Assembly: GCF_010907035.1 (NCBI RefSeq)
Contig: NZ_QUMK01000009.1
Span: forward strand, 1 to 64,000
Origin: Rhodopseudomonas sp. BR0M22
GTDB lineage: Bacteria > Pseudomonadota > Alphaproteobacteria > Rhizobiales > Xanthobacteraceae
Direction: 5' to 3'
DNA length: 64,000 nucleotides
A program made the position numbers and the translations under genes. Shown here piece after piece: positions 48,102-52,807 of the stretch. The notes beneath the pieces were generated by a model. The model ran no database searches. It was not told where the DNA came from and saw only the letters and a program-made list of their open reading frames with translations. Within the stretch, counting starts at the first letter, position 1, and each line of letters begins with the position of its first letter.

Positions 48102-49499
48102 ATGTCGTCATCTGTCGCGGAAGGCATGGCGCAACCTCGTGAACCGATCCGCTATCCGTCGCAGGGCGCCGTCATCGGCTGGATCCTGTTCGATTGGGCG
48201 GCGCAGCCATACTTCACGCTGATCACCACCTTTATCTTCGCGCCCTATTTCGCCACCTACGTGGCGCCGGATCCGGCGACCGGCCAATCGCTGTGGGGGT
48301 TCGCCACCGCGGCGAGCGGTTTCATCATTGCGTTGGCATCGCCGGTGCTCGGTGCGATCGCGGATGCCAGCGGCCGGCGCAAGCCGTGGATCGCGCTGTT
48401 CGGCGCCATGCTGGTGATCGGATCGATGCTGATGTGGTTCGGCAAACCGGGCGAGCCACATACGATCCTGCCGCTGCTGATCGCCTACGCGGTCGCCACT
48501 ATCGGGGTCGAATTCGCCACCGTGTTCAATAACGCGATGATGCCCAACCTGGTGCCGCCGGAGAAGATCGGCCGCCTGTCCGGCACCGGCTGGGCGACCG
48601 GCTATGTCGGCGGCATCCTGTCACTCGTCCTGGTGCTCGGCTTCCTCGCCGCCAGCCCGGACACCGGCAAGACGCTGCTCGGCATCGCGCCGTGGTTCGG
48701 ACTCGATCCGGCGCAGCACGAAGGCGATCGGATCAGCGGCCCGCTCACAGCGGTGTGGTTCGTGGTGTTCGTGCTGCCGATGTTTCTGCTGACGCCGGAC
48801 TTCCCGGCCAAGCTGGCGCCGCGCGCCGCAATCCGCGAGGGATTGCGCGAGCTCCGCGAGACGCTGCGCGATCTGCCGCGTCGTCGTTCGCTCGCGATCT
48901 TTCTGCTCGCCAACATGATCTACACCGACGGGCTGGTGTCGCTGTTCGCGTTCGGCGGCATCTACGCCACCGGCACCTTCGGCTGGAGCACGATCCAGAT
49001 CGGCACCTTCGGCATCATCCTGGCGATCGCCGCCACCATCGGTGCGTTCGTCGGCGGCAGGCTCGACGATGCGTTCGGTTCCAAACGGGTGATTGCCGGC
49101 TCGCTGCTCCTCCTGCTGGTCGCAATCGCCGGCATCCTGCTGATCGATCCCAGCCATGTGCTGTTGATCGAAGTGACGCCGCCGCAGCCGGGAGGCGCAT
49201 TGTTCGCGTCACCGGCGGAGCGCGCTTATCTGCTGCTCGGCTGCCTGATCGGCATCGCCGGCGGACCGCTGCAGGCCGCATCCCGCACGCTGCTGATCAG
49301 GATCGCCCCACGGGACCGGATCGCTCAGTATTTCGGCCTGTTCGCCCTCACCGGCAAAGTGACGTCGTTCATCGGCCCGCTGCTGATCGCGACCGTCACG
49401 GCGCTGGCCAGCAGCCAGAAAGCCGGCATGGCCGTGCTGGTGCTGTTCTTCGTCGCCGGATTGGCGCTGCTGACCCAGGTTCGGCGCTCGGCGGAGTGA
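48102..49499 (+). CDS. MFS transporter of the UMF1 family
   Basis: 465-residue membrane transporter with about 12 hydrophobic helices. The N-terminal WILFDWAAQPYFTLITTFIFAPYF and the ASPVLGAIADASGRRKPW loop are typical for the UMF1 family (related to fungal Atg22). Substrate not known. GGAAGGA precedes the ATG at 48102. Its stop is followed by the control region of the DAHP synthase gene; no clear terminator lies between, except the small hairpin 49507-49526. Confidence 0.88.
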   Translation: MSSSVAEGMAQPREPIRYPSQGAVIGWILFDWAAQPYFTLITTFIFAPYFATYVAPDPATGQSLWGFATAASGFIIALASPVLGAIADASGRRKPWIALFGAMLVIGSMLMWFGKPGEPHTILPLLIAYAVATIGVEFATVFNNAMMPNLVPPEKIGRLSGTGWATGYVGGILSLVLVLGFLAASPDTGKTLLGIAPWFGLDPAQHEGDRISGPLTAVWFVVFVLPMFLLTPDFPAKLAPRAAIREGLRELRETLRDLPRRRSLAIFLLANMIYTDGLVSLFAFGGIYATGTFGWSTIQIGTFGIILAIAATIGAFVGGRLDDAFGSKRVIAGSLLLLLVAIAGILLIDPSHVLLIEVTPPQPGGALFASPAERAYLLLGCLIGIAGGPLQAASRTLLIRIAPRDRIAQYFGLFALTGKVTSFIGPLLIATVTALASSQKAGMAVLVLFFVAGLALLTQVRRSAE

Positions 49500-49512: not shown

Positions 49513-49541
49513 TGGACAAACGCACCGACCTGGTCTATATG
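49513..49541 (+). promoter_or_regulatory. Candidate promoter for the aromatic attenuator
   Basis: TGGACA at 49513-49518 and TATATG at 49536-49541 are 17 bases apart. A start site 6-8 bases past the -10 would fall at 49547-49549, that is on or next to the A of the leader ATG. So the leader mRNA may have no 5' untranslated part. The -10 matches only the first four positions of TATAAT well. Confidence 0.45.
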
Positions 49542-49548
49542 AGCGGGC

Positions 49549-49626
49549 ATGATCCACCTGACCGCCTCGTACTGGTACTTTTATTTTAGCAGCTCGCTGG
49601 CGGCGGGAGGATTTCGCGCGATCTGA
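49549..49626 (+). CDS. Leader peptide for aromatic amino-acid attenuation
   Basis: A 25-residue open frame starting MIHLTASYWYFYFSSS and ending in ARG-Ala-Ile before TGA at 49624-49626. Six aromatic codons in a row (Tyr-Trp-Tyr-Phe-Tyr-Phe, 49570-49587) would stall a ribosome when charged tRNA-Tyr, -Trp or -Phe is short. The frame lies 88 bases before DAHP synthase, the first enzyme of aromatic synthesis, and overlaps RNA segments that pair in a mutually exclusive way. There is no ribosome site, which fits the predicted leaderless transcript. Too short to be called by length, but the codon content and the RNA make it convincing. Confidence 0.85.
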   Translation: MIHLTASYWYFYFSSSLAAGGFRAI

Positions 49627-49659
49627 AGATTGCAGCATAGAGATCCGACAAGCCGCCAG
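49597..49659 (+). promoter_or_regulatory. Antiterminator of the aromatic attenuator
   Basis: CTGGCGGC at 49597-49604, inside the leader frame ten bases past the aromatic codons, pairs perfectly with GCCGCCAG at 49652-49659, the 5' arm of the terminator. CCGCC at 49562-49566 can in turn pair with GGCGG at 49599-49603. So four segments are present as in classic trp attenuators: a ribosome stalled on the aromatic codons frees 49597-49604 for antitermination, while one that reaches the stop at 49626 covers it. Confidence 0.8.
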
Positions 49660-49679
49660 ACCTGGCGGCTTTTTTGTTT
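49651..49679 (+). terminator. Intrinsic terminator of the attenuator
   Basis: AGCCGCCA (49651-49658), loop GACC, TGGCGGCT (49663-49670), then a T-run to 49679 with a single G. It lies between the leader stop codon and the DAHP synthase start, so it must be read through for expression. Confidence 0.9.
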
Positions 49680-49714
49680 GAGCCGGCAGGTCTCCTGAAC
49701 AGGAGCAAACTGCC

Positions 49715-50803
49715 GTGTTGACCACCACAGACGACCTTCGCCTTCAGAAAATCACCGAACTGAGTACGCCCGCCGAAGTGATGGGCGAGATTCCGCGCAC
49801 ACTGACCGCGACACGCACCGTCGCGGCAAGCCGTAGCGCGATTCACGCCATCCTGACCGGAGCCGACGACCGGCTGCTCGTCGTCGTCGGCCCGTGTTCG
49901 ATTCACGATCCGGCCGCGGCCATGGACTACGCCAATCGTCTGGCGGCGCTGCGCGAGACCCTGGCCGACCGGCTCGAGATCGTGATGCGGGTGTATTTCG
50001 AAAAGCCGCGGACCACGGTGGGTTGGAAGGGGTTGATCAACGATCCCGATCTCGACGGCAGCTTCCGGATCGACAAGGGATTGCGGCTGGCGCGTGACGT
50101 GCTGTCGGCGGTGAACAATCTCGGCCTGCCGGCCGCCACCGAATTCCTGGATCTGATCACGCCGCAATACATCGCGGATCTGGTCGCCTGGGGGGCGATC
50201 GGCGCGCGAACCACCGAGAGCCAGATCCACCGCGAACTGGCATCGGGGCTATCCTGCCCGATCGGGTTCAAGAACGGCACCGACGGTAACGTCCGGATCG
50301 CCGCGGAGGCGGTGAAATCCGCGGCGCAGCCGCATCATTTCATGGCGGTGACCAAGGGCGGGCGCAATGCGATCGCGGCCACCACTGGTAACAGCGACTG
50401 CCACGTCATCCTACGCGGCGGCGTCGCGCCGAACTACGACGCCGCAAGCGTCGAAGCCGCCGCAGCGGTGCTCGGCAAGATCGGCCTGGCGCCGCGGCTG
50501 ATGATCGACGCCAGCCACGCCAACAGCAGCAAGCAGCCGGACAACCAGCCGAAGGTGACGGCCGATATCGCGCGCCAGTTGGCGGCGGGCGAGAGCCGCA
50601 TCTTCGGCGTGATGATCGAAAGCAACCTAGTTGCCGGTCGGCAGGACGTCGTGCCGGGTCAGCCGCTGCGCTACGGCCAGAGCATCACCGACGGCTGTAT
50701 CGACTGGGAGTCGACCGAGACGGTGCTGCACGAGCTGGCCGCCGCGGTCGAGAACCGGCGAGCTGCGCGGCGTAGCGCTCAGCAAGAAGGTGCTGCGGCT
50801 TGA
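49715..50803 (+). CDS. 3-deoxy-7-phosphoheptulonate synthase, class I
   Basis: Joins phosphoenolpyruvate and erythrose 4-phosphate to make DAHP, the entry to chorismate and aromatic amino acids. 362 residues of the AroF/G/H type: GPCSIHDP (about 60), RVYFEKPRTTVGWKG (about 92), IGFKNGTDG (about 187) and the metal-binding IDASHANSSKQ with His near 268. E. coli paralogues are 350-356. Starts at the GTG at 49715 with AGGAG at 49701-49705. Expression appears controlled by the attenuator at 49549-49679. Which amino acid feeds back on the enzyme cannot be told. Confidence 0.94.
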   Translation: MLTTTDDLRLQKITELSTPAEVMGEIPRTLTATRTVAASRSAIHAILTGADDRLLVVVGPCSIHDPAAAMDYANRLAALRETLADRLEIVMRVYFEKPRTTVGWKGLINDPDLDGSFRIDKGLRLARDVLSAVNNLGLPAATEFLDLITPQYIADLVAWGAIGARTTESQIHRELASGLSCPIGFKNGTDGNVRIAAEAVKSAAQPHHFMAVTKGGRNAIAATTGNSDCHVILRGGVAPNYDAASVEAAAAVLGKIGLAPRLMIDASHANSSKQPDNQPKVTADIARQLAAGESRIFGVMIESNLVAGRQDVVPGQPLRYGQSITDGCIDWESTETVLHELAAAVENRRAARRSAQQEGAAA

Positions 50804-51049: not shown

Positions 51050-52639
51050 TTAGTGCCGGAAGTGCCGGGTGCCGGTGAACACCATGGCGATGCCGGCGTC
51101 GTCGGCGGCCTTGATCACTTCGTCGTCGCGGACCGAACCGCCGGGCTGGATCACCGCGGTGGCGCCGGCCTCGATGCAGGCCAGCATGCCGTCGGCGAAC
51201 GGGAAGAACGCATCCGACGCGACCACCGAGCCCTTGGTCATCGGCGCCGCGAGCTTCAGCTCAGCCGCCGCATCCTGCGCCTTGCGGGCGGCGATGCGGG
51301 CAGAGTCGACGCGGCTCATCTGACCGGCACCGATACCGACCGTGGCGAGGTCCTTGGCGTAGATGATGGTGTTGGACTTGACGTGCTTGCCGACGCGGAA
51401 CGCGAATTTCAGGTCGCGCAGCTCGGCTTCGGTCGGCTGCCGCTTGGTAACGACCTTCAGCGCCATGTCGTCGACCACCGCATTGTCGCGGCTCTGCACC
51501 AAGAGGCCGCCGGCGACAGTCTTGTAGGTCAGGCCGTTGGCACGCGGATCGGGCAGCGCGCCCGCCAGCAGCAGCCGCAGATTCTTCTTCGCCGCGACGA
51601 TCGCGATCGCTTCCTCGGTGGCGTCGGGCGCGATGATCACTTCGGTGAAGATCTCGGTGATGGCGCGCGCGGCTTCCGCATCGAGGGTGCGGTTGAGCGC
51701 CACGATGCCGCCGAACGCCGACACCGAGTCGCAGGCCAGCGCCTTGCGATACGCATCGAGCAGGCTTGCGCCCTCGGCGACGCCGCAGGGGTTGGCGTGC
51801 TTGACGATGACGCAGGCCGCGGTGCGCCCGGCGTCGAACTCGCCGACGCACTCATAGGCCGCATCGGTGTCGTTGATGTTGTTGTAGGACAGTTCCTTGC
51901 CCTGCACCTGGCGCGCGGTGGCGACGCCTGGGCGCTTCTCCGGGGTGGCGTAGAACGCCGCGGTCTGGTGCGGGTTTTCGCCGTATCGGAGGCTCTGGAT
52001 CAGCCGACCGCCGATCGCGCGGAAGTCCGGCGCGTCGGTCTTGAGCTGCAGCGCGAACCAGTTGGAGATCGCCGCATCGTAAGCGGCGGTGCGCGCATAG
52101 GCCTTGGCGGCGAGGCGGCGGCGCAGGGTGAGCGTGGTCGCGCCGTTGTTGGCCGCGAGTTCGTCGAGCACCGCCTGATAATCGCTGGCCTCGACCACCA
52201 CGGCGACATCGTCGTGGTTCTTGGCCGCGGCGCGGATCATCGCCGGGCCGCCGATGTCGATGTTCTCGATGCAGTCTTCGTAAGATGCGCCCTTATCGAC
52301 GGTCGCTTCGAACGGATACAGATTGACGACGAGCAGGTCGATCTGCGCGATGCCGTGATCGGCCATCGCCTTCTTGTGCTCGGCATTGTCGCGGATCGCC
52401 AGCAGGCCGCCATGCACCTTGGGGTGCAGGGTCTTGACCCGGCCGTCCATCATTTCGGGGAAGCCGGTGAGATCGGAGACGTCCTTCACCGGCAGGCCGG
52501 CGGCTGCAATCGCCTTGGCGGTGCCGCCGGTCGAAACCAGCTCGACGCCGTGGCCGACGAGCGCCTTGGCGAAATCGATCAGGCCGGTCTTATCGGATAC
52601 GGACAGAAGGGCACGGGTGACGCGGCGCGGCTCAGTCAT
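51050..52639 (-). CDS. purH: Bifunctional AICAR transformylase/IMP cyclohydrolase
   Basis: Catalyses the last two steps of de novo purine synthesis. 529 residues: the MGS-like cyclohydrolase domain at about 8-150 ([33 protein letters not shown]) and the transformylase domain after 200 (the Lys-His pair in [10 protein letters not shown]; the late [26 protein letters not shown]). The ATG at 52639 follows AGAGGA; an earlier Met at 52669 is unlikely. Likely monocistronic. Confidence 0.97.
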
Positions 52640-52807
52640 GGGGCAAGATCCTCTGATGGAAGGAAACAAATGCCCAGGCGCGCGGCAGATACGTCCCGCG
52701 CTTCCCGATGGTGCTCCATCCTAGGTCGCCAGTCGCGCGAGGCGAGCGTGGATTAGCAGTTTTCGCCGGCCGCGACAACGGCGACCAAGGTTTCAAGTGC
52801 ACCCAGT

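Follow-up and report, generated by a model that had tools for sequence, protein, structure and literature searches.

The control of DAHP synthase sets the flow of carbon into aromatic metabolism, and the well-known model for this control is Escherichia coli with its three isozymes and protein repressors. Transcription attenuation by the classical logic of leader peptide, antiterminator, and terminator is exemplified by the pheA and pheST attenuators of E. coli, and pheA and pheS leaders are a known kind of attenuator. A single leader can also read several amino acids, i.e., threonine and isoleucine or the branched-chain amino acids in the thr and ilv attenuators of E. coli. The element described here resembles thr and ilv in having several inputs per leader and differs from them in that its inputs belong to the aromatic family.

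Attenuators have been reported or predicted upstream of DAHP synthase genes as well, and the following comparisons draw on excerpts of the cited papers. In Corynebacterium glutamicum, the AroR leader (Phe-Tyr-Phe) attenuates aroF and responds to Phe, not to Tyr (PMC11802643; PMC4046766; the system of Neshat 2014). Compared by description only, it is alike in being a leader peptide attenuator with aromatic codons in front of a DAHP synthase gene; however, it is actinobacterial and there is no Trp in the reported motif. For aroF of Acholeplasma, a Phe uORF with terminator has been predicted (motif uORFC-13-1; PMC8632094), which by its description shares the position before a DAHP synthase gene but encodes Phe only, uses its U-run as coding sequence, and is represented by 24 sequences from Acholeplasma and environmental samples. 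Putative attenuators are listed for Vibrio aroAI-alpha_Y > tyrA (PMC1173090), and a motif is predicted for Shewanella aroF (PMC2659441). The leader peptide attenuation logic of E. coli pheA/pheST is stated in PMC11802643; these attenuators follow the same logic but have Phe-dominated codons and control other genes. Finally, trpL (rnTrpL) of Sinorhizobium meliloti is a leaderless attenuator of trpE, for which functions in trans have been shown (PMC7298713; PMC10117765). The present element is similar in that its leader ATG is predicted to lie at the transcript start and in that it precedes an alphaproteobacterial gene for aromatic amino acids; in contrast, the 14-aa ORF of trpL has Trp codons only, and trans functions are those shown for trpL.

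The element was found in a window of 64,000 nucleotides from Rhodopseudomonas sp. BR0M22 (contig NZ_QUMK01000009.1, positions 1 to 64,000). Very probably it controls a class I DAHP synthase gene by ribosome-mediated transcription attenuation, with inputs from Tyr, Trp, and Phe. Its logic is classical, and what is new in this real and conserved attenuator candidate is the set of inputs and the gene family in Proteobacteria. A proteobacterial Tyr, Trp, and Phe leader of a DAHP synthase was not found among the literature matches listed, which does not establish its absence from print; to this extent the claim of an earlier sequence-only reading that such a three-amino-acid leader is undescribed in this group holds, whereas attenuation of DAHP synthase genes in general has been reported or predicted elsewhere, in the four groups named above. 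No Rfam, NCBIfam, or Pfam family was found for the leader. Membership in the Rfam families Phe_leader (RF01859) and Trp_leader (RF00513) was rejected, as the scores of the window, 23.4 and 17.1 bits, fall short of the gathering thresholds of 55 and 41, respectively, and no such match occurred in the 20 relatives scanned.

Leader ORF, predicted promoter, and RNA segments

The features of the locus are collected in Table 1. The leader ORF ends 88 nt before the start of the class I DAHP synthase gene, and an intrinsic terminator lies between the two. The genome of the window encodes one class I and one class II DAHP synthase, and a further match to the PF00793 family is taken as KDO8P synthase. 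Downstream, on the minus strand, a ZMP/ZTP riboswitch (RF01750, 63.4 bits, 52665-52746) is situated at the 5' end of an ORF (51050-52669) that is read as purH.

Table 1. Features of the leader region and the class I DAHP synthase gene (coordinates of the window).
Feature	Coordinates	Strand	Basis or remark
Probable promoter: TGGACA (49513-49518), 17-nt spacer, TATATG (49536-49541)	49513-49541	+	spacing kept in 28 alphaproteobacterial leaders
Leader ORF, 25 aa and TGA, peptide MIHLTASYWYFYFSSSLAAGGFRAI	49549-49626	+	ORF translation, conservation; predicted leaderless
Segment 1, protector strand	49557-49566	+	pairs with 49599-49607; folding
Regulatory codons Y8 W9 Y10 F11 Y12 F13	49570-49587	+	inside leader ORF
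Segment 2, antiterminator strand CTGGCGGC, inside ORF	49597-49604	+	8-nt copy of the 3' arm of the terminator; RNA motif conservation
Hairpin H2, stop codon (49624-49626) in loop	49609-49646	+	folding; nested inside antiterminator
Segment 3 GCCGCCAG	49652-49659	+	pairs with segment 2 (antiterminator) or segment 4 (terminator)
Intrinsic terminator, 49650-49658/49663-49671 and T-run 49670-49675	49650-49675	+	folding; present with all 39 order-sample class I DAHP synthases
Shine-Dalgarno AGGAG of DAHP synthase gene	49701-49705	+	sequence
Class I DAHP synthase (AroF/G/H family), 362 aa, GTG start	49715-50803	+	PF00793 E 1.5e-94; TIGR00034 529.6 bits, cut-off 173.2

The sequence-only reading had proposed a 25-codon ORF with the consecutive codons Tyr-Trp-Tyr-Phe-Tyr-Phe (YWYFYF); it is borne out, the run occupying codons 8-13, and all coordinates of that reading hold on re-reading of the window. 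In its six frames, the window contains a single run of six aromatic codons and 100 dinucleotide shuffles contain none; runs of at least four such codons number three versus 0.23 per shuffle. In a column-shuffle test of codon linkage among aligned leaders, 39/40 in-frame rows have an aromatic codon at position 9 versus 21.0 expected (TGG in 25/40), with 9/38 versus 2.6 at codon 12 and 41/41 versus 37.2 at codon 10. At codons 8 and 11, observed and expected values are equal and the test has no power, and codon 13 carries little information. The aromatic codons vary among leaders, comprising TAT, TAC, TTT, TTC, and TGG. An ORF rich in codons for the end products, as is typical of attenuators, was thus found in the YWYFYF run, with codons 9 and 12 kept and such ORFs present before 39/39 genes of the order sample.

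At the RNA level the antiterminator motif CTGGCGG is conserved, yet in 6/42 leaders it stands in another reading frame; in L097 and L098, for example, nearly identical bases are read as PLAEEG and SPWQRKG, respectively. The linkage of the aromatic codons together with this frame-independent antiterminator separates the translation of the run from the RNA structure, and, along with some covariation, supports the RNA switch as well as the interpretation from sequence comparison that the aromatic codons are under selection and the run is translated. A conserved peptide function for the SLAAGG/PLAEEG tail was considered and rejected, given the equivalent RNA in another frame and the result that neither Pfam (nine leaders compared) nor NCBIfam (ten) yielded a match up to E 1. 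A possibly decaying attenuator is that of L036 (Candidatus Burkholderia humilis, 2314-2449), whose leader ORF overruns the usual stop and whose antiterminator motif is read in a different frame.

The leader ORF is probably translated from a leaderless message, as judged from the placing of a -10 element and from a missing Shine-Dalgarno sequence. A promoter-like pair, absent from the sequence-only reading, has a TATATG ending 7 nt before the leader ATG. Across the 28 alphaproteobacterial loci, the spacing of the best -35/-10 pair is 17 nt in 27 and 18 nt in one, and the end of the -10 element is 6-9 nt from an in-frame leader ATG (taken to the first of two in-frame ATGs for L010, L090, and L093). 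A Shine-Dalgarno-like 4-mer precedes the leader ATG at 1/28 of these loci versus the DAHP synthase start at 27/28. The arrangement of S. meliloti trpL, i.e., a -10 element close to the ATG and no Shine-Dalgarno sequence, is thus seen here as well, with a predicted start site. A strict sigma-70 scan of the window did not call the promoter because position 6 of the -10 element is not T. The trpE leader of the same genome (L176, contig C123), a Trp leader MRTFRPTPQLRRRWWRTS, looks leaderless too and has the same promoter-to-ATG geometry (TTGACT-17-TCGTCT-7-ATG).

The RNA segments proposed in the sequence-only reading are found again by folding, partly in extended form. Its terminator (stem 49651-49658/49663-49670 with T-run) is real and its stem extends to 9 bp, and the perfect pairing of 49597-49604 with 49652-49659 over eight bases exists as described. 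The pairing of 49562-49566 (CCGCC) with 49599-49603 (GGCGG) is part of a 9-bp helix formed by 49557-49560 and 49562-49566 with 49599-49607. A further hairpin missing from that reading, H2, which holds the UGA stop codon in its loop, forms in both states. The leader RNA folds with z = -4.1, and in the leader of the window the occurrence of the terminator arm as an 8-nt copy has p ~0.005 (200 shuffles). Among the 42 diverse leaders, 37 have a copy of at least 6 nt, and 26 reach p <= 0.05 singly.

Covariation provides moderate support, which comes mostly from H2: in alignment A1, 10 of its 15 pairs show two-sided changes, with only 68-75% of cells pairing. Over the whole structure there are 27 two-sided cells versus 14.0 in shuffles; pairs with two-sided changes number 11 versus 8.3, a value equalled or passed in 30/500 shuffles and thus not striking, and further pair types show no excess (28 versus 29.0). 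For the antiterminator, covariation is weak (one pair with two-sided changes, reached by 299/500 shuffles) because its core GGCGG/CCGCC is nearly invariant. Some co-ordinated changes in three strands occur at 49598/49658/49663 and 49604/49652/49669. The protector helix formed by segments 1 and 2 shows no two-sided changes, is kept in 74% of cells of A1, and is partly broken outside the close kin.

Alternative folds under a ribosome mask

A 28-nt ribosome footprint was moved codon by codon along the leader and the transcript was refolded. This masking reproduces the four-segment logic of the sequence-only reading, in which the antiterminator excludes the terminator. Free full-length RNA of the window favors the terminator (-53.5 versus -48.3 kcal/mol for the antiterminator), as does RNA with a ribosome on the stop codon (-37.2 versus -27.4 kcal/mol). 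With a stall at Y8 or W9, the antiterminator prevails in the full transcript (-42.9 versus -39.1 kcal/mol), and likewise at Y10 (-41.8 versus -39.1 kcal/mol), whereas both folds are balanced at F11 (-39.3 versus -39.1 kcal/mol). A stall at Y12 favors the antiterminator only before segment 4 exists; at F13 the antiterminator loses one of its eight pairs, and at codons 14-24 it cannot form. Masking at the non-aromatic codons 2-7 has the same effect as at Y8-Y10. The earlier proposal that distances suit stalling at the aromatic codons therefore stands for Y8, W9, Y10, and F11, whereas Y12 and F13 are less effective or ineffective in the model because both are close to the antiterminator strand.

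The effective codons Y8-F11 of the window thus cover Tyr, Trp, and Phe, and sensing of all three amino acids is plausible in this model. It is quite possible, though we favor it less, that the attenuator responds to no more than one or two of the aromatic tRNAs (e.g., those for Trp or Tyr) and that the other codons are passengers or tune the stalling distance. The AroR leader of C. glutamicum, as described in an excerpt, has Phe-Tyr-Phe codons and yet responds to Phe without a Tyr response (PMC11802643). Effective codons are those far enough from segment 2, F11 of the window being borderline; all three amino acids are among the codons with P(antiterminator) > 0.5 in only 22/42 leaders, one of the three is missing altogether in 13/42, and Trp is absent from several Oxalobacteraceae leaders and from the Cupriavidus leader L061. 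This narrower sensing is countered by the presence of all three amino acids among the effective codons of the window and by codon 9, which stays aromatic, and mostly TGG, against the column-shuffle expectation.

The attenuator with three inputs was also examined for its behavior before segment 4 is made. At this stage, P(antiterminator) exceeds 0.5 for a stall at one or more of the aromatic codons in 41/42 diverse leaders and stays below 0.1 in 42/42 when the ribosome is on segment 2. An antiterminator that excludes the terminator and is freed by stalling was thus found in silico, in the window and, before segment 4, in those 41 leaders. At the same stage, free RNA of the window favors the antiterminator (-40.2 versus -37.6, i.e., by 2.6 kcal/mol), and so does RNA with a ribosome at codon 25 (by 3.5 kcal/mol), although both terminate in the full-length fold. 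The same early preference is shown by free RNA in 20/42 leaders and by RNA carrying a ribosome on the stop codon in 18/42, so that termination there needs segment 4 to displace segment 2. This preference of free RNA slightly lowers confidence in the attenuator reading.

Full-length folds were calculated for 72 of 74 leaders, omitting L036 and L059 (judged a false pass of the scanner). A clear full-length switch, defined as terminator > 0.5 in free RNA and at the stop codon and < 0.5 at an aromatic codon, is seen at equilibrium in 19/72 leaders (15/28 from α-Proteobacteria, 4/44 from others), and a universal thermodynamic switch of the full-length RNA was accordingly rejected. In the full-length fold, termination persists in 51/72, and L040 and L041 adopt the antiterminator even as free RNA. 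In leaders lacking the equilibrium switch, kinetics would have to do the work.

Distribution of the leader and the DAHP synthase family

In the order sample, 39/297 genomes have a class I DAHP synthase, and an aromatic leader with terminator is located upstream of 39/39. Conservation of the aromatic run and the stems in relatives, suggested as a check in the sequence-only reading, is therefore evident in this sample and extends to Burkholderia, Massilia, Xanthomonas, Dyella, and other named genera. In the family sample, 15/149 genomes have the class I gene and the leader is found with 15/15. Among named genomes, the scanner detected an aromatic-run ORF plus terminator at 59/80 class I loci, one of which (L059) was judged false; these include 13/13 loci from Hyphomicrobiales. 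Within the same 80 loci, those from enterobacteria, Photobacterium, Thauera/Azoarcus, and Methylotenera are without the leader-terminator pair. Loci L046 (52 nt upstream) and L049 (199 nt) were dropped before leaders were counted.

Covariance model R1 was built from alignment A2, consisting of 42 chosen, diverse leaders out of 74, and matches in genomes that supplied rows of A2 are not independent of it. In the order sample, the top 39 matches (E <= 4.9e-9) are exactly the 39 class I leader places, and in the phylum sample, where 225/398 genomes have a class I synthase, 48/48 matches at E <= 5.2e-9 closely precede a class I DAHP synthase gene, both cuts having been set after seeing the match lists. 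At E <= 0.001, the model matches 104/297 and 143/398 genomes, respectively, and most of the weak rows are partial, covering the 3' terminator part. From the phylum search, 54 upstream stretches (L122-L175, eight of them from the order search) were read out of the 225 genomes.

These matches bear on two other explanations. The main product might be the terminated RNA of about 125 nt, or the peptide, acting in trans like S. meliloti rnTrpL/peTrpL, with attenuation of the synthase being secondary. The leader is probably leaderless like that of S. meliloti trpL, whose attenuator RNA and 14-aa peptide are described as acting in trans (PMC7298713), and the trpE leader of the genome itself has the same promoter-to-ATG geometry; we nevertheless consider this explanation unlikely, as the part following the aromatic codons is kept as RNA and its change of frame in 6/42 leaders indicates that the peptide is not conserved as a peptide, and as all 39 order and 48 phylum matches within the above cuts are placed in cis before a class I DAHP synthase. 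Even less credible is a constitutive terminator, belonging to the upstream transporter gene or a spurious transcript, beside a chance ORF and without regulation: a transporter-like ORF does end at 49499, about 50 nt upstream of the leader, but the 39/39 conservation, the linkage of aromatic codons, and the mutually exclusive folds make this highly improbable. The class II DAHP synthase gene of the same genome, for which a leader was also considered and rejected, has neither an aromatic leader nor such a terminator in the upstream stretch read, which argues further against a constitutive terminator.

The attenuator assignment can also be compared with weaker matches of R1. Thirteen full-length ones (L190-L202) were read as five leaders of tyrS-like ORFs, one pheS leader, four leaders of pheA-like ORFs, and three matches that look like chance (L195, L201, and L202). 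As the DAHP synthase model also retrieves pheA, pheS, and tyrS leaders, the mechanism is of a known kind, and the retrieval of pheA and pheS adds to the likeness with the E. coli attenuators. The five tyrS leaders (L190-L194 in G261, G377, G411, G394, and G426, from base 201 in gene orientation) contain Tyr-rich ORFs, e.g., MIKTAATFVYFYYVTSIPAAA, before a tyrS-like ORF, together with a CCGGCGG-type antiterminator strand and a terminator, and come from one family of the order. By their sequence these elements are probably tyrosine attenuators of tyrosyl-tRNA synthetase; tyrS was identified by TIGR00234 for L190 and L191 and from the translation only for the other three.

Phylogenetic analysis of the synthases included 111 of 131 rows, 20 near-copies being omitted. 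Leaders were labelled by the ORF scanner alone, ignoring the terminator; L035, which has a terminator and an aromatic-rich ORF with too short a run, was labelled as having none, and L082, a scanner pass without terminator, was set to none. The leader label needs 9 changes on this tree versus 20.3 for shuffled labels, near-copies favoring clustering, which implies that the leader follows one family of the enzyme. The gene of the window groups with that of Mesorhizobium (support 98) and not with the Bradyrhizobium-type genes of its own family, suggesting from tree position that gene and attenuator moved together. Two class I synthases from records labelled Melainabacteria and Anaerolineae (L052 and L056) fall among proteobacterial rows and have no leader; they perhaps represent misbinned contigs or transfer. 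Three genomes, G607 (L168/L169), G453 (L170/L171), and G724 (L145/L174), possess two class I synthases each, with a clear aromatic leader on one and none or an unclear one on the other, hinting at a division of labor between isozymes.

Proposed mechanism and significance

In the proposed mechanism, transcription from a sigma-70-type promoter would begin with the leader ATG or close beside it, and the leaderless message would be loaded by a 70S ribosome. If Tyr-, Trp-, or Phe-tRNA is short, the ribosome would stall at codons 8-11 and cover segment 1, leaving segment 2 free to pair with segment 3, with the stop-codon hairpin nested within; the terminator would be blocked and the synthase gene transcribed. 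If all three tRNAs are charged, the ribosome would run on, mask segment 2, and then sit on the stop codon in the hairpin loop. Segments 1 and 2 would re-form their helix behind it, the terminator would form, and the RNA would end near 49675. In untranslated full-length RNA, the combination of the 1:2 helix and the terminator is predicted to be most stable. At the first step of the pathway, the single leader would in this way combine the three end products as an OR gate.

There is an even chance, in our judgment, that these leaders constitute an undescribed attenuator family across the α-, β-, and γ-Proteobacteria that moves with one class I DAHP synthase and in which a single leaderless ORF serves as an OR gate for the charging of Tyr-, Trp-, and Phe-tRNA. 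If so, it would be the RNA counterpart of the strategy based on the three isozymes AroF, AroG, and AroH, as one synthase would receive transcriptional feedback from all three end products. It would also add to the probable examples of attenuation through a leaderless leader ORF, and, since the codons for each amino acid can be replaced separately, it would offer a clean test bed for the OR-gate behavior of multi-input attenuators. For the organism, it would explain how supply is adjusted to demand in a lineage whose only class I enzyme is accompanied by a class II enzyme free of such leader control.
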